Source of the DNA: Haloarcula sp. CBA1127
GTDB lineage: Archaea > Halobacteriota > Halobacteria > Halobacteriales > Haloarculaceae
Direction of reading: 5' to 3'
DNA length: 64,000 nucleotides
Assembly (NCBI RefSeq): GCF_001485575.1
Contig: NZ_BCNB01000006.1
Coordinates: 1,426,001-1,490,000 of the forward strand
Positions 15,550 through 21,815 of this stretch are shown here, one piece after another. Numbering within the stretch: position 1 is the first letter of the stretch; each line of letters starts with the position of its first letter. Both the position numbers and the translations under genes were made by a program. A model generated the notes under the pieces. It ran no database searches and was not told the origin of the DNA. It saw only the letters and a program-made list of their open reading frames with translations.

Positions 15550-18222
15550 CTACCGAACCACGACGACGGCGCTTTCGGTTTCGGTCATCTCGCCCTCGCC
15601 GGAGTAGGTCCGGGACTCCTCGACAGCGAACATCTCGTCGTCAAGTTCGACACCGGCGACCTGCAGCGTGTCGCCGTCGATCTCGTAGTCGCCGTCCTCG
15701 ATAGCGGCGTCGATAGCGCCGACTTCGCTTCCGAACTCGGGGCCGACGAGCGAGTAGTCGAGGTCGATGCCGCTGACCTCGGTCGTGATATCCGGGGCCT
15801 CGTCGTAGGTGTCCAGCTGGGCCACGTGCATCGCCTCGGCGACGGCGTCCTCGAAGCCGGCGATGTGGCCGAACACCTCGACGTGGTCGAGGTCGGCGTT
15901 CAGCGGCAGCCCGTTCTCGGTCTTGTACCGCCGGAGCGCGGAGACGACCTCCATCGCCGTCTCGCCTGCTTCGAGGTCGGCCTCGTAGCCGCCCGAAGTC
16001 GGCCAGTCCGTCGTGTGGATTGAGCTATCGTCCTCGTAGCACCGCTCCCACAGTTCCTCCGTGATGTGCGGGAGGAACGGTGCGAACAGCTGCAGGAAGG
16101 TCCGATGAGCCTGCAGGAGCGTGAACTCGGTCGACGTATCTTCCCCATCCGAAAGCCGCTGCTTGGCGATTTCGAGGTAGTCGTCACAGAACGTGTTCCA
16201 GAAAAAGGACCGGAGTTCGTTCCGGGCCTTCGAGAACTCATAGTCCTCGAACTTCGTCGTGACTGACTCGACGGTTGCGTCCAGTTCGGCCAGCAGCCAC
16301 TCGTCGACTGCGGCGAAGTCGTCTGGCTCGTCTGGCTGACTCGCAGGCGTGAGCTGGTCGACCAGCCGCGAGGCGTTCCAGAGCTTCTGGAGGAGTCGCT
16401 CACCAGCTTCGAGGTCGCCCTCCTTGTACGGGAAGTCGTCGCCGATGGAGGTGCCGGCGGCCCAGTAGCGGGTGGCGTCGACCGGGAACTCTTCAAGCAC
16501 CTCGCTTGGCGGGATGACGTTGCCCTTGGACTTGGACATCGCCTCGCGGTTCTCGTCCAGCACCATCCCGTTTATCATCACGTTCTCGAATGGCACCTCG
16601 CCGGTGTGCTCGTAGCACTTGACGACGGTGTGGAACAGCCAGAATGAGATGATGTCGTGACCCTGCGGGCGCAGGTCGAAGGGGTACAGCTCCGGCAGTT
16701 CCATGGTGAACGACTCGCTGTCGGCGTCCCAGTCCCAGCCAGCATTCACGAGCGGGGTTAGCGACGAGGTCGCCCACGTGTCGAAGACGTCTTCCTCGGG
16801 CGTCAGCGAGTCGTGGCCACACTCGGGGCAGCTCTCGACCGGCGGGCCGTCCGACAGCGGGTCGACCGGGAGCTGCTCGCGCTCGGCCATCACAGGCTCG
16901 CCGCAGTCGTCGCAGTACCACACCGGAATCGGGATGCCCGAATCGCGCTGGCGGGAGATACACCAGTCCCATTCGAGCCCTTCGATCCAGTGCTCGTAGC
17001 GGGTAGCCATCTTCTCGGGGTACCACTCCATCTGGCGGCCGGCCTCGATGTACTCCTCTTTCTTATCGAGCAGCTCGATGTACCACTGCTCGGTGACGAG
17101 GTACTCGACTTCCTCTTCACAGCGCTCGTGGACCTGCACAGTGTGGTCGTGGTCGCGACTCTCAAGCAGCGAGCCCTCCTCGCGTAGGTCTTCGATGATG
17201 GCATCGCGGGCCTCGGTGGTGTGCATTCCCTCGTACTCGCCGGCCACATCCGTCATCGTCGCGGACTCGTCGATGGCGAGCCGGAGCGGCAGGTCGTGAG
17301 CCTGATACCACTCGATGTCGTTCTGGTCGCCGAACGTACAGCACATGACGATGCCGCTGCCGGTCTCCATGTCGACACGCTCGTCGGCGATGACGGGAAC
17401 CTCCTGCTCGAAAAGGGGCACTCGCGCACTGCCACCGACGAGGTGCTGGTTCTCGTCGTCGTCGGGATGGACGAAGACGGCGACACACGCCGGCAGTAGC
17501 TCGGGGCGGGTCGTCGAAATGGTGAAGCTCGCGTCCTCGTCGGCCGGTCCCTCGCCCGTCTCGACGAGGTCGAAGGCGATGTCGTTGAACAGCGTCGACT
17601 TGTCTTTGTCCTCCTGTTCGACCTGTGAGATGGCCGTTTCACAGTCCGGACACCAGATGGTCGGCGCGCGCTGACGGTACTCCCGACCCTGTTCGTAGAG
17701 GTCGAGGAAGGATAGCTGCGAGACCCGCTGAACATCCGGCGCGATGGTCTTGTAGGTGTTGTCCCAGTCGATGGATATCGCAAGCGACTGCACGTCCTGC
17801 GTGAACTCATCCTCGAACTGCGTACACACGTCGCGGCACTTCTCTTGGAACTCCCGGCGCGGGTAATCCTGATGTCGAATGTCGAGTTCGCGCTCGGTGA
17901 GTCGCTCCGAGGCGATACCGTTGTCGTCGTAGCCGAAGGGGAAGTAGACGGTGTCGTCGCGCATCCGGTGGAAGCGGGCGACGAAGTCCTGCAGCGTGAA
18001 CTGGTAGAGGTGGCCCATGTGGAGGTTCCCCGACACCGTCGGCGGCGGCGTGTCGATGGTAAAGCGAGTGTCGGCGTCCTCGTCGTAGGCGTAGGTCTCG
18101 TCGGCGACCCACTGGTCCTGCCACTCTGGCTCTACCTCGCGGGGGTCGTACTCCCCGTCGAGGGCGTTCTCTGATTTGTCTGCGGTCGATTCGTCCTGCG
18201 GTGGGTCCTGTGTGTCACTCAT
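15550..18222 (-). CDS. valS: Valyl-tRNA synthetase
   Basis: An 890-residue class I aminoacyl-tRNA synthetase that charges tRNA-Val and edits mischarged threonine. The HIGH motif reads HMGH at residues 68-71. The KMSKS motif reads MSKSK within EAMSKSKGNVIPP. The editing domain lies between the two, and the anticodon-binding domain and an acidic C-terminus follow. Start: the frame is open for 11 more codons, but ATG 18222 gives the normal MSDTQDPP N-terminus seen in acidic haloarchaeal forms. A 13-bp palindrome lies just upstream. Confidence 0.97.
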   Translation of the reverse strand: MSDTQDPPQDESTADKSENALDGEYDPREVEPEWQDQWVADETYAYDEDADTRFTIDTPPPTVSGNLHMGHLYQFTLQDFVARFHRMRDDTVYFPFGYDDNGIASERLTERELDIRHQDYPRREFQEKCRDVCTQFEDEFTQDVQSLAISIDWDNTYKTIAPDVQRVSQLSFLDLYEQGREYRQRAPTIWCPDCETAISQVEQEDKDKSTLFNDIAFDLVETGEGPADEDASFTISTTRPELLPACVAVFVHPDDDENQHLVGGSARVPLFEQEVPVIADERVDMETGSGIVMCCTFGDQNDIEWYQAHDLPLRLAIDESATMTDVAGEYEGMHTTEARDAIIEDLREEGSLLESRDHDHTVQVHERCEEEVEYLVTEQWYIELLDKKEEYIEAGRQMEWYPEKMATRYEHWIEGLEWDWCISRQRDSGIPIPVWYCDDCGEPVMAEREQLPVDPLSDGPPVESCPECGHDSLTPEEDVFDTWATSSLTPLVNAGWDWDADSESFTMELPELYPFDLRPQGHDIISFWLFHTVVKCYEHTGEVPFENVMINGMVLDENREAMSKSKGNVIPPSEVLEEFPVDATRYWAAGTSIGDDFPYKEGDLEAGERLLQKLWNASRLVDQLTPASQPDEPDDFAAVDEWLLAELDATVESVTTKFEDYEFSKARNELRSFFWNTFCDDYLEIAKQRLSDGEDTSTEFTLLQAHRTFLQLFAPFLPHITEELWERCYEDDSSIHTTDWPTSGGYEADLEAGETAMEVVSALRRYKTENGLPLNADLDHVEVFGHIAGFEDAVAEAMHVAQLDTYDEAPDITTEVSGIDLDYSLVGPEFGSEVGAIDAAIEDGDYEIDGDTLQVAGVELDDEMFAVEESRTYSGEGEMTETESAVVVVR

Positions 18223-18233
18223 ATTCAAACGGT

Positions 18234-18246
18234 GGGTGTAACACCC
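18234..18246. promoter_or_regulatory. 13-bp palindrome immediately upstream of valS
   Basis: GGGTGT-A-ACACCC is a perfect inverted repeat 11 bp before the valS ATG. No good TATA box is obvious nearby. It could be an operator or a 5' UTR hairpin, or chance. Confidence 0.35.
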
Positions 18247-18453
18247 GGGTAGCATCTGGCTGCAGCGTGGTTATCAGCGGTGCGTGCGTCGATTTGGAGC
18301 GGTGATGTGGGGCGTGGGGGCCCCTACACCGACGGGCGCGAGAACCAGCGTTCGGGAGAGTCGACGCACCATCTGTACAATACTCCGCCAACGGCAGGAT
18401 TAATGACTTCGGTTTTCGCTGGCGTTCCAGCAGCTTCTGGACACCGCCACTCT

Positions 18454-19371
18454 TTACGGCAGGTCGGACTCGCGGTGCTCACGGTCCTCGGCGGAGTGGG
18501 CGCGGACCCACAGCTGTCCGATGCGCGAGAGCGTTGTTCGGTAGGACTTCCCGTGTTCTTCCTGCTCGATGTACCCTTTTCCACCGGGGCCGAGCCGGTC
18601 GACGTTGTAGATGACCTTCGAGCGGAAGGAGTCGGTGTACTCCTCACCGAGGTCCCGGGCCAACTGCTGTGCTAGCTCGGAGACGGACTCGAACTCGCCG
18701 TGTTCGCCCAGCGTAAAGAGGATGACCTCCTCGAAGGGCTTGACGTTCGAGAAGGAGGCGACGGGAAGCTCGACCACGTGGGAGCCGTCGATCTCCTTCG
18801 CGCCGATGGTCGTCCCCCGCTCGTCGAACTCCGATAGCAGGTCCCGCGCGGTTTCCAGTCGGTCGTCGATGCGCTCGTCGACTTCTTCGCCCGTGCGCAT
18901 ATCCTCCAGCATGTCGATCTGCTTGCGCAGTTCTTCGGCGAGTTCCGTCTCCAGATACTTCTCAGGGACCGTGTAGTAGGTGTGGATGCGGTCCCGGTCA
19001 CCCTCGCGCTCGACCATAATCGAGTGGGCCGCGGTCGCAAAGGCAAAGGAGACAGTCCGGGGCATCGCGGAGACGTTGACCCACACCTCGCTGCCCGCGT
19101 CGAGTTCCGCGTTGATGAGTTCGAAGGCCTGCTCGAAGGCCTCGTCGTAGTCGTACACGTCGGCGACGACGAACCGCTCGGTTTCGGCCCCGAGCAGATT
19201 CTGATAGTCCTTTTCCAGCTTCTCAGCGAGGTTGCGCGAGTACTCGACGTTGGCCTCGCTGCCGACCGCCCCCTCAAGCAGGATGACGCGGTCAACGTCG
19301 AGTTGCTCGCGCACCAGCGGCGCGATGAGCCGGTCGTAGTCGAACCCGACCGGGACGATGTGGGTCTGCAT
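18454..19371 (-). CDS. CARF-like domain with winged-helix (HFX_2341/DUF6293-type regulator)
   Basis: A 305-residue soluble protein. The N-terminal 120 or so residues look Rossmann-like. They start MQTHIVPVGFDYDR, with a VSAMPRTVSFAFATAAHS segment (about 101-117) at the position where CARF domains have their ligand-binding loop. A charged helical linker (about 140-180) follows. The C-terminal region (about 220-300) resembles a winged helix ending RTTLSRIGQLWVRA. This layout matches the haloarchaeal HFX_2341/DUF6293 group and recalls the CRISPR regulator Csa3. No CRISPR or cas gene is in the window. It may sense a nucleotide second messenger (inference). Confidence 0.65.
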   Translation of the reverse strand: MQTHIVPVGFDYDRLIAPLVREQLDVDRVILLEGAVGSEANVEYSRNLAEKLEKDYQNLLGAETERFVVADVYDYDEAFEQAFELINAELDAGSEVWVNVSAMPRTVSFAFATAAHSIMVEREGDRDRIHTYYTVPEKYLETELAEELRKQIDMLEDMRTGEEVDERIDDRLETARDLLSEFDERGTTIGAKEIDGSHVVELPVASFSNVKPFEEVILFTLGEHGEFESVSELAQQLARDLGEEYTDSFRSKVIYNVDRLGPGGKGYIEQEEHGKSYRTTLSRIGQLWVRAHSAEDREHRESDLP

Positions 19372-19440: not shown

Positions 19441-19872
19441 TTACTCGCAGGTCTCGTGGACGATAGCGCCTTCATCGTTCGGCCCACGGCGCTCCCCGGG
19501 AACGATAGGGTCCTCGCAGACGGCGCAGGTCAGCTCGCCGCTGGCGTGGCCGTTCGCGGTTTCGGTGTCGTCAGCGGACGTAAAGTCCACGCTCACGTCC
19601 GTCGACTCGTCGGCTGCCGGCTCGTCGTCTGCGCCACTCGGTGCAAACACGTCGTCGTCGCTCCCACTCGTCGTATCGATGTCGAGCGTGTCGTTGAAGC
19701 CACAGTAGCCCGTCGAGGCGTTGAAGCCCAGGCCGAGCGCGCCGATTCCGGCGAGCAGGCCGCGCTTGCGCTTCCCACTGCGAAGCCAGCGCAGGGAGAC
19801 GATTGTCAGGACGACTGCCAGCACCGCTCGGATCAGGCGGTCTCGACCGCCGACGTTCTTATCGGAGTCCAT
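19441..19872 (-). CDS. DUF2892-like membrane segment with C-terminal zinc-binding motif
   Basis: A 143-residue protein. The N-terminal 60 residues (VGGRDRLIRAVLAVVLTIVSL, then GLGFNASTGYCGFND) resemble the DUF2892 inner-membrane family. A long acidic linker follows. The C-terminus has CAVC and a later H-x-x-x-C arrangement (IVHETCE), probably a small zinc knuckle. The start is set at ATG 19872 (MDSDKNVGG) rather than the longer open frame to 19959. Function unknown. Confidence 0.65.
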   Translation of the reverse strand: MDSDKNVGGRDRLIRAVLAVVLTIVSLRWLRSGKRKRGLLAGIGALGLGFNASTGYCGFNDTLDIDTTSGSDDDVFAPSGADDEPAADESTDVSVDFTSADDTETANGHASGELTCAVCEDPIVPGERRGPNDEGAIVHETCE

Positions 19873-19974
19873 ACCTGCACATTGGTCTGGATGCTTTTGT
19901 AGGTTTACATGTCCGACGGTGGCCGCCGTCCGGTGGTTGTCACGGTGAACGGTCAGCACCGGACCGACCGGGTC

Positions 19975-21501
19975 TCAGTCGCTTTCGACGCCGGAGACGG
20001 CGTATGCGGTGCGGTCCTCGGTCGCCGCGGGGGCAGTCACCAGCGAGATGGTGACCGTCAACACGAGACCGACCAAGATGCCCACGATGCCCGGCGTCCA
20101 GCCGAAGTACGCCGTCGGCAGGGCAACGTCGAGACCGAGCAGTCCCCCAACCGTCGCAAGCACGGGGAAGACGTGCAGGCCGTAGAACACCTGACTCCCG
20201 ACCACGCCGGCGTACATCCCCGAGCGCGTCGTTCCCTGCCAGTACAGCGCGAGTGCGACGGGAACAGTAAGCTGTGCGAAGCCGCTGAAGGCTGTGTCGC
20301 CGATCTGGACCAGCGTCCCCGGCGTGTAGAGGCTCGCAATGAACGAGAGGGTGGCAAAGATGACGACGCCGATGCGGGCGACGAACGCCTCGCGGCGGTC
20401 GGTCTCTTCGTTGCTGGCGTCGCCGCGGCCGGTCAGTGGCCGGTAGAGGTCTCGCGTGAGGTACGACGAGCCTGACAGTAGCATCGAGTCGCTGGAGGAC
20501 ATCATCGCGGCCATCGCGCCGGCGATGACCAGTGCGGTGAACCACGTCGGCGTGTACTCGCCCAGCAGCGCCGGGATGACGTTGCCACCCTCTGGGACAG
20601 TGATGCCGAGTCCAGCCGCCCAGGCCCCCAGCATGAACGCCGGGACGAACAGGAGGAGGACCAGCACCGGCCAGAGCGCGAACGTGCGCTTGAGCACCTT
20701 CTTCGAGCCGGCGGCGAAGAAGCGCTGATTGATTTGCGGGAACATCGTCACGCCGAAGGCGATGCTGACCGCGGTGGAGATGATGTACTGCGGCGTGTAG
20801 AGGCCGCCGCCGAGACCGACGAACGCGGGCTCTTCGGACGCCAGCAGGGCCGTCGCCTCGCCCGCACCGCCGACGGCGGAGAGGACCCAGGCGACAGCGA
20901 CCCAGATCAGCGAGAGCATGAACAGCCCCTGGAGCGTGTCGGTCCAGGCGACGCCGCGCATTCCCGAGAGCGCGACGTAGAGAATCATGAACAGCGTGAT
21001 GCCGCCGGCTCCGACCCAGAACGGGACCGCGCCGTTCGTGAGACCGACGATGGCTTGCCCGGCCCCCTTCTGCTGGAGCATCACGTACGGGAACAGCCAG
21101 ACGAGGCTCACAGCGGCGACGACAACGCGGAGCGCCGTCGACCCGAACCGGTCGCCAAGCATCTCGCCCAGCGTCACGTAGCCGTGGCGCTTGCCGACCA
21201 GCCACTGCTTGTATCCCAGCACGTACCAGAGGACGGCGAAGATGATGCCATCCATTAGTCCCATCACGAGAATCCATTCGGGGCCGGCGCTGAACGCGAG
21301 GTTCGGGCCGCCGAAGAAGGTAAACGCCGACAGCAGCGTCGCAAAGGTGGTAAACAACAGCACGACCGTGCCGAGCGTCCGGCTTGCGAGGTAGTAGTCC
21401 TCGGCGGTGCGCTCGGTGAGCCGGTAGGCGACCGCGCCCACCGCGAGCGCGACGACCATGTACGCGCCGACGATACCCAACTGGAGCGCAGTATCGGCCA
21501 C
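19975..21501 (-). CDS. Sodium:solute symporter family protein
   Basis: A 508-residue membrane transporter with about 13 hydrophobic helices, coupling sodium entry to uptake of an unidentified solute. The SSSF signature region is visible (AFTFFGGPNLAFSAGPEW near the N-terminus; GAMAAMMSSSDSMLLSGSSY around residue 340, where the paired serines of the sodium site lie). The neighbouring DUF3311 gene ends 1 bp before this start, so the two are co-transcribed. The pairing recalls other SSS transporters that travel with a small membrane partner. Substrate not predictable. Confidence 0.92.
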   Translation of the reverse strand: MADTALQLGIVGAYMVVALAVGAVAYRLTERTAEDYYLASRTLGTVVLLFTTFATLLSAFTFFGGPNLAFSAGPEWILVMGLMDGIIFAVLWYVLGYKQWLVGKRHGYVTLGEMLGDRFGSTALRVVVAAVSLVWLFPYVMLQQKGAGQAIVGLTNGAVPFWVGAGGITLFMILYVALSGMRGVAWTDTLQGLFMLSLIWVAVAWVLSAVGGAGEATALLASEEPAFVGLGGGLYTPQYIISTAVSIAFGVTMFPQINQRFFAAGSKKVLKRTFALWPVLVLLLFVPAFMLGAWAAGLGITVPEGGNVIPALLGEYTPTWFTALVIAGAMAAMMSSSDSMLLSGSSYLTRDLYRPLTGRGDASNEETDRREAFVARIGVVIFATLSFIASLYTPGTLVQIGDTAFSGFAQLTVPVALALYWQGTTRSGMYAGVVGSQVFYGLHVFPVLATVGGLLGLDVALPTAYFGWTPGIVGILVGLVLTVTISLVTAPAATEDRTAYAVSGVESD

Positions 21502-21502
21502 G

Positions 21503-21712
21503 TCAGTTCACCTCCTCGACGCCGAGGCCCCAATCGGTGCGCGCGAAGATGGCGAAGACGACGCTCGCAAGCGCCATCCACCCAACGTGCCACCACAGCC
21601 AGACGGGCAGTCCGGCCGCGATCGTGCTGGTGTCCCAGAGGAACCACGGCACTGCCAACGCCATCAACACGAGCGCGACGACTGTCCACCCAGCGGCCCT
21701 GACCGTACTCAT
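21503..21712 (-). CDS. DUF3311 family small membrane protein
   Basis: A 69-residue protein with two hydrophobic helices (about 8-28 and 36-58). The intervening PVWLWWHVGW stretch is typical of DUF3311. It is the first gene of a two-gene unit with the sodium/solute symporter, 1 bp apart, so it is probably an accessory subunit (inference). Confidence 0.8.
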   Translation of the reverse strand: MSTVRAAGWTVVALVLMALAVPWFLWDTSTIAAGLPVWLWWHVGWMALASVVFAIFARTDWGLGVEEVN

Positions 21713-21815
21713 ATTACGACAGTCTAGCCGCTGGCGGTACTAATGGGTAACGAACCTTCACTATCTCTTGTTGAAGAACAATCTCCTTCAATACGCCCAC
21801 GTCACAGAATCATCT

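Follow-up and report, generated by a model that had tools for sequence, protein, structure and literature searches.

Among the closest described systems is HFX_2341 of Haloferax mediterranei; both it and DUF6293 are named in Turgeman-Grott et al. 2024 (PMC11434293), whose accessible text reports, for HFX_2341, an HHpred similarity to Csa3a, vertical inheritance and, among 861 haloarchaeal genomes, homologues in 643. Its deletion from H. mediterranei changed many genes, mostly upwards, with the biggest difference in amino-acid and coenzyme transport and metabolism (means 3-fold and 11-fold); RNA-seq of the deletion detected no significant cas change, cas1 and cas3 were significantly higher by qPCR, and overexpression of HFX_2341 strongly repressed cas genes (PMC11434293). 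In the same text the name crr is proposed, the effects are said to be possibly indirect and c-di-AMP is listed among the possible signals (PMC11434293).

According to the accessible parts of the two studies on it, Csa3a of Saccharolobus solfataricus (2wte, 6w11, 6wxq) likewise joins a CARF domain to a winged helix, and its palindrome lies upstream of BRE/TATA, where its presence tracks the regulator (PMC8699464, PMC8844856). The cA4 pocket of Csa3 is lined by motif 1 (hydrophobic-G9-F10-N/D11) and motif 2 (L93-x2-G96-hydrophobic97-R98), and the G96A and R98A substitutions each abolished cA4 binding (PMC8699464, PMC8844856). MM_0565 of Methanosarcina mazei also combines a CARF domain with a winged helix, is a dimer in solution and exerts global effects in an archaeon, but it is reported as CRISPR-associated and as binding CRISPR leaders, and its abstract holds no NAD link (PMC7465815). 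RosR of Halobacterium salinarum (6qfd, 6ez1) has a comparable C-terminal winged helix; its matching chains measure 110-114 residues and are thus without a CARF domain. The bacterial regulators NrtR and NiaR, as far as the accessible sources go, control genes of NAD synthesis and niacin uptake, the role proposed below, but they belong to different protein families, the Pfam scan of the regulator studied here showing only HFX_2341_N, DUF7776 and a sub-threshold Csa3_N.

Here, we analysed a stretch of 64,000 nucleotides from Haloarcula sp. CBA1127 (hereafter the window), which encodes a regulator of the HFX_2341 family. Like HFX_2341/Crr, this protein matches NF051475 above the cut-off, has CARF-like and winged-helix parts and belongs to a family present independently of CRISPR, and the published deletion, with its de-repressed coenzyme and transport genes, fits a role in NAD metabolism (PMC11434293). 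The accessible text of that paper presents a CRISPR-related global repressor and gives no operator or direct target (PMC11434293), whereas we propose, from sequence comparison, that the family probably regulates NAD synthesis and precursor uptake through predicted binding to a palindromic operator. The features discussed are the following.

15550-18255: valS, downstream of the regulator
18454-19371, minus strand: HFX_2341 family regulator, 305 residues (NF051475, 588 bits; Pfam HFX_2341_N and DUF7776; fold matches)
19441-19959, minus strand: YgaP-like TM protein (DUF2892), between the symporter and the regulator (Pfam PF11127)
19975-21501, minus strand: SSS-family sodium:solute symporter, predicted target and candidate NAD-precursor importer (Pfam SSF, 144 bits)
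21503-21712, minus strand: DUF3311 small membrane protein, partner of the symporter and first gene behind the predicted operator (PF11755, 54.4 bits, cut-off 30)
21771-21791, minus strand: predicted operator TTGAAGGAGATTGTTCTTCAA, upstream of the DUF3311-SSS pair (13 of 14 positions match)

Family assignment and gene neighbourhood

The regulator ORF starts with ATG and, as observed, is confirmed as real, far beyond chance. Its NF051475 match ('HFX_2341 family transcriptional regulator', cut-off 500 bits) aligns residues 1-294 with profile positions 1-298 of 299, which makes it a full-length member, and it is 80-99% identical to each of the 51 other sequences of alignment A1. Pfam places HFX_2341_N at residues 3-139 and DUF7776 at 140-208 and has no match at the C-terminus; the overall layout is a CARF domain (about 1-139), the DUF7776 segment and a winged helix (about 209-303). 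The PADLOC model PDLC01846 (CARF3) matches residues 1-293 with 534.5 bits and, because it already covers the family, the CARF assignment is not new: both the family and its CARF nature were known, and the deletion study dates from 2024.

By tblastn, the window's genome holds a single copy of the regulator. It also encodes a second HFX_2341_N gene (G000:C6:2645078-2645431, locus L119; 144 bits), and relatives of that kind elsewhere have another type of winged helix, DUF6293_C. Ten haloarchaeal plasmid records encode relatives with 32-42% identity to the window protein; one of these records is L283 (Haloplanus plasmid NZ_CP147875.1), where the relative is followed by one small hypothetical gene and then a VWA-domain protein.

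Neighbours were counted in 80 named loci over up to 4 kb on each side, with tblastn only, ORF clustering being too noisy in GC-rich DNA: a symporter match was present in 45, valS in 33, a DUF1405 gene in 30 and the DUF2892 gene in 12. The original prediction had given valS and a DUF2892 gene as the neighbours, which they are (the current Pfam name of the latter is YgaP-like_TM); we regard the DUF2892 gene as a neighbour of the regulator. The best NCBIfam match of the symporter is panF, at 146.8 bits against a cut-off of 328, and for this reason no substrate was assigned. Among the matches listed, the regulator lies within 10 kb of the symporter in 84 of 129 genome pairs and of valS in 59 of 127; in family f4 the symporter is that close in 22 of 53 and valS in 0 of 57, whereas family f3 has valS close by more often (32 of 42) than the symporter (28 of 39), so that part of the linkage is explained by shared ancestry of gene order. 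Coordinates entering these distances covered 156 of 188 regulator genes, 150 of 174 symporters and 150 of 151 valS genes. The quinolinate synthase gene nadA is found near the regulator in 5 of the 80 named loci, in 2 of 20 fetched regions and in genome G176. The gene context of the regulator points to NAD metabolism, a link absent from the original prediction; counting against the model, 17 genomes have a regulator above or close to the cut-off and a symporter that was not found.

Beside the symporter, genes of the YqcI/YcgG and isochorismatase families adjoin each other in three genomes (L142:4596-6063, L143:5252-6662, L144:5588-6933); genome G009 has such a pair near 2.27 Mb, far from its symporter.

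A palindrome upstream of the symporter and its co-loss with the regulator

The sequence TYGAAGA-N7-TCTTCRA, a palindrome of 21 bp, precedes the DUF3311-SSS pair, nadA and a nicotinate phosphoribosyltransferase gene. The site at 21771-21791 is the window's only one with at least 12 of 14 matching positions and, at no more than one mismatch, the only one in the genome (reversed control 0); at the symporter, the site is roughly 30 bp upstream of a TATA-like element. An initial pattern, TGAAGA-N6-TCTTC, had the wrong spacing and was discarded (77 genome matches against 61 for its reversed control).

Symporter promoters were scored by the best palindrome match, out of 14, in up to 560 bp upstream. 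The 45 named loci with a symporter match yielded 39 promoters, six being left out where the locus ended short of a complete symporter start or promoter; two of these score 11, seven 12, twenty-one 13 and nine 14, so that 37 of 39 reach at least 12. Two Halorarius loci (L059, L064) taken at first as site-less, with 9 of 14 from a short upstream stretch, gave 12 and 13 from a longer one. In a second set, which overlaps the first in species, the score is at least 12 in 36 of 47 regulator-bearing genomes and 9-11 in the other 11, against 0 of 6 genomes without the regulator (9 in four, 10 in two); of 1720 dinucleotide shuffles, 12 attain a score of 12, and a Fisher test, which ignores relatedness, gives p = 0.0005 for 36/47 against 0/6. 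The 11 regulator-bearing genomes below 12 comprise six of family f2, G024 and G132 (11 each), G020 and G050 (10 each) and G033 (9).

Five of the six regulator-less genomes belong to genus g16, in which each of the 15 regulator-bearing congeners sampled scores 13-14; the sixth, G060, is from another family, and its congener G134, which has the regulator, scores 13. All six lack the AT-rich segment with the palindrome, yet the DUF3311 and symporter genes are in place downstream. Counted cautiously and without a tree, this co-loss of palindrome and regulator amounts to two events.

The genome-wide search, in 30 chosen genomes at up to one mismatch, returned 4 sites over all 30 for the reversed control. 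The symporter site is the sole match in 10 of the 15 g16 genomes with the regulator, and the six regulator-less genomes have 0-2 sites each (5 in total), none at the symporter. Some regulator-bearing genomes hold several, symporter site included (8 in G154, 6 in G075), G024 has none at this threshold and G178 has one, away from its symporter. With so few sites per genome, the direct regulon looks small, unlike the wide published effect.

Predicted sites at NAD synthesis and salvage genes

In two genomes of genus g30 (G189 and G152), which we guess to be Haloferax, the pattern itself located further perfect sites at nadA (266.9 bits, TIGR00550 cut-off 262.9) and at a nicotinate phosphoribosyltransferase gene (530.6 bits, NF006415 cut-off 243); a site at nadA (276.2 bits) was found in the same way in the g16 genome G176. 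All 12 nadA promoters examined carry the palindrome with 11-14 matches, nine having been found without the pattern and three by it. The nine, located by homology or linkage, come from Natronomonas (2), Halopenitus (2), unclassified Haloarculaceae (1), g16 genomes (2) and near-identical Haladaptatus plasmids (2, from two of three genes, H2 being left out); each has 11 or 12 matches, a level that shuffles reach in 0-4 of 200. Both nicotinate phosphoribosyltransferase promoters with the palindrome were found by the pattern. On the Haladaptatus plasmids, nadA is followed by a gene for an FAD-dependent oxidoreductase, which we read as nadB-like, and by nadC. At nadA, the AT-rich core is located some 40-70 bp ahead of the start codon.

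Two palindromes 119 bp apart stand upstream of nadA in g30 (L215:2466-2486 and 2585-2605; L219:2486-2506 and 2605-2625), and a 13/14 palindrome at L217:1631-1651 (G189:C1:128130) has no convincing adjoining gene in the ORF listing. In the regulator-less genome G009, no NadA, NadB, NadC or nicotinate phosphoribosyltransferase was found in 1.2 of the 3.05 Mb of the main contig.

The palindrome is thus conserved before NAD genes, and it is at the symporter alone that it is seen to track the regulator. A literature search whose scope left out preprints and most subscription papers returned no operator or NAD link for HFX_2341; new here are a probable operator and, with it, a probable set of targets.

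A joint change in family f2 and the probable binding protein

None of the six family f2 genomes scores above 11 for the canonical palindrome (10 or 11 in each), and an AT-rich palindrome with altered outer bases, read by eye, stands at the expected place in five of them, with none in G018. In the winged helix, whose third helix spans model residues 247-260, all six f2 proteins have T254, T256 and K259 within that helix; at these positions, 15 other compared sequences have I or L at 254, N at 256 and R at 259 (L in one). Such a joint change is only suggestive of a link between helix and operator, and of a loose one, because T256 is shared by two Halovenus loci among the 52 named sequences and two Halopenitus loci have Q259 together with canonical nadA sites.

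The palindrome might instead belong to another NAD regulator, co-lost with HFX_2341, which would itself be a global repressor of broad effect, not specially linked to NAD. The published deletion alters many genes in many categories (PMC11434293), as this would predict; the regulator's own promoter is devoid of the operator (best scores 7-11 among the 65 named loci of more than 8.5 kb), five regulator-bearing genomes outside f2 have no good symporter site, and it is by sequence comparison that the palindrome is assigned to HFX_2341. We nevertheless consider a different binder unlikely, since HFX_2341 is the protein indicated by the co-loss in two lineages, by the linkage to the symporter and to nadA and by the joint change in f2. 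The short Pfam relatives cannot be that binder, because two of them occur in each of G008, G009 and G015, which have no site, whereas G013 has the HFX_2341 copy alone and yet a 14/14 site.

Fold and ligand pocket

An AlphaFold2 model built on 52 sequences has a mean pLDDT of 73.4 and a pTM of 0.48, so that single domains are usable and the domain arrangement is not. Both the Rossmann-like N-terminus and the C-terminal winged helix that had been read from the sequence appear in this model, the former as a CARF fold. The structural comparison bore out the suggested likeness to Csa3: 2wte_A is the best Foldseek match in the PDB (E 5.3e-6), and the best 50 matches listed are CARF-type proteins, in part as judged by their titles. 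VIA-align matched residues 1-141 to CARF domains (Can2 7bdv, Z 15.0, rmsd 2.1, 113 residues aligned) and residues of about 209-303 to winged helices (RosR 6qfd, Z 12.7, rmsd 3.5, 88 residues; MarR 3vod, Z 11.9, rmsd 2.3, 75 residues). On the predicted model, the N-terminal domain therefore has the fold of the CARF superfamily, by comparison with Can2 7bdv and Csa3 2wte and in line with PADLOC CARF3; the lack of a CARF fold, which the original prediction had given as a refuting outcome, did not arise. It was the fold search that worked, as PDB sequence searches with the regulator, the 52-row alignment, a mixed family alignment and a relative from the methanogen side returned no convincing relative.

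The 'VSAMPRT' stretch, previously singled out as resembling a ligand loop, spans residues 100-106 and does fall at the place of Csa3 motif 2. Motif 1 is present as V8, G9, F10 and D11 in 52 of 52 family sequences; in motif 2, by ungapped sequence placement, Arg105 (52/52) falls on R98 but Met103 (52/52) occupies the position of G96. As the invariant Arg105 and motif 1 are kept and Gly96 is replaced by Met103, a phosphate-binding pocket in the CARF domain is likely, whereas a Csa3-like mode of cA4 binding is doubtful. Relative to Csa3a, as described in the accessible parts of its literature, the window regulator thus differs by Met103 for Gly96 and also by the added DUF7776 segment, a genome distribution without a CRISPR link and its predicted metabolic targets.

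Of 30 loci in the wider Pfam family, 12 gave usable proteins, of which nine short relatives entered alignment A2; Gly stands at the G96 position in four of the nine, and three of those four have Lys in place of Arg98.

Distribution in the class and independence from CRISPR

Among 194 genomes of the class, each at least 90% complete, the HFX_2341 family is present in 188 (above the cut-off in 187), and the six genomes without it fall in two families. Cas1 was detected in 77 of the 194; G170 is the only one of the six regulator-less genomes that has it, and the window's own genome has no match. With presence in 188 of 194 against 77 of 194 for Cas1, the regulator is a core gene independent of CRISPR. 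The weakest regulator matches are those of G071, G101 and G173 (E about 1e-90 or 1e-91, two matches each), where the symporter is also missing at E 1e-120; the regulator gene may be broken in these three.

The original prediction of a CARF and winged-helix regulator outside CRISPR is upheld: a simple scan for spaced repeats detected no array in the window, and strict co-occurrence is excluded by the 112 of 188 carriers that have no Cas1 match. The check for type III systems which it called for gave Cas10 in 0 of 194 genomes with PF22335 and in 0 of 194 above the cut-off with the Csm1 model TIGR02578 (one Pfam and one NCBIfam model), so that no type III source of cOA is seen. Sub-cut-off matches to TIGR02578 occur in 120 of 194 genomes; those listed are confined to the first 142 of 753 profile positions, and we infer that they are unrelated HD-domain proteins.

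A sensor of c-di-AMP tied to the osmotic state, for which the NAD genes would be only part of the response, has been put forward as an idea as regards its signal in the accessible text of PMC11434293, and diadenylate cyclase is indeed encoded in 194 of 194 genomes. That number includes all six regulator-less genomes, so the profile says little, and the targets found are NAD genes; we hold this reading to be distinctly improbable. A Csa3-like CRISPR regulator that answers to cyclic oligoadenylate and controls cas genes is in our view very improbable, for, although 2wte is the top structural match and the cas mRNAs of H. mediterranei fell strongly on overexpression and those of cas1 and cas3 rose by qPCR on deletion, the deletion RNA-seq did not register a significant cas change (PMC11434293, accessible text), the family shows no association with CRISPR, Cas10 goes undetected, the Gly essential for cA4 is Met103 throughout, and the Csa3 family model TIGR01884 scores 20.5 bits against a cut-off of 60.2 (Pfam Csa3_N, 14.4 against 27).

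Discussion

We think it likely that the HFX_2341/Crr protein, a CARF and winged-helix transcription factor, acts in haloarchaea as a regulator, for the most part a repressor, of NAD synthesis and salvage. Its winged helix would bind TYGAAGA-N7-TCTTCRA as a dimer, and the CARF pocket may bind a nucleotide that reports NAD status, such as NAD itself, its deamido precursor or ADP-ribose, and may thereby adjust DNA binding. At nadA, an operator core in the position observed could cover the promoter and so cause repression; at the symporter, which would import a niacin-like precursor, activation is possible because the site there is upstream of the TATA-like element. The cas repression in H. mediterranei and much of the wide transcriptome change would then be indirect effects.

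Co-loss, promoter sites, linkage and the joint change in f2 were counted in favour of this NAD-regulator reading, which is also supported by the fact that the largest published de-repression is in amino-acid and coenzyme transport and metabolism. Counted against it were the breadth of the published RNA-seq effect, which is not that of a small regulon, the restriction of the co-loss to two lineages and the sites found elsewhere in regulator-less genomes. More tentatively, and with somewhat less than even confidence, we suggest that throughout the class the CARF domain, familiar from CRISPR immunity as a sensor of cyclic oligoadenylates, could be a sensor of NAD status: with NAD or a related adenine dinucleotide as its ligand, it would act through the winged helix on NAD synthesis, the salvage of nicotinate and the uptake of precursors. 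Such a protein would be an NAD-responsive regulator of Archaea and would account for the coenzyme and transport genes de-repressed in the published mutant.

If the NAD-regulator reading is true, haloarchaea would gain an NAD regulator that has both a name and a defined operator. Crr, published as a CRISPR-related repressor, would be recast as a metabolic regulator, and the CARF fold, mostly treated as a part of antiviral signalling, would, in a strongly conserved and near-universal regulator of a housekeeping coenzyme pathway, serve ordinary metabolism.
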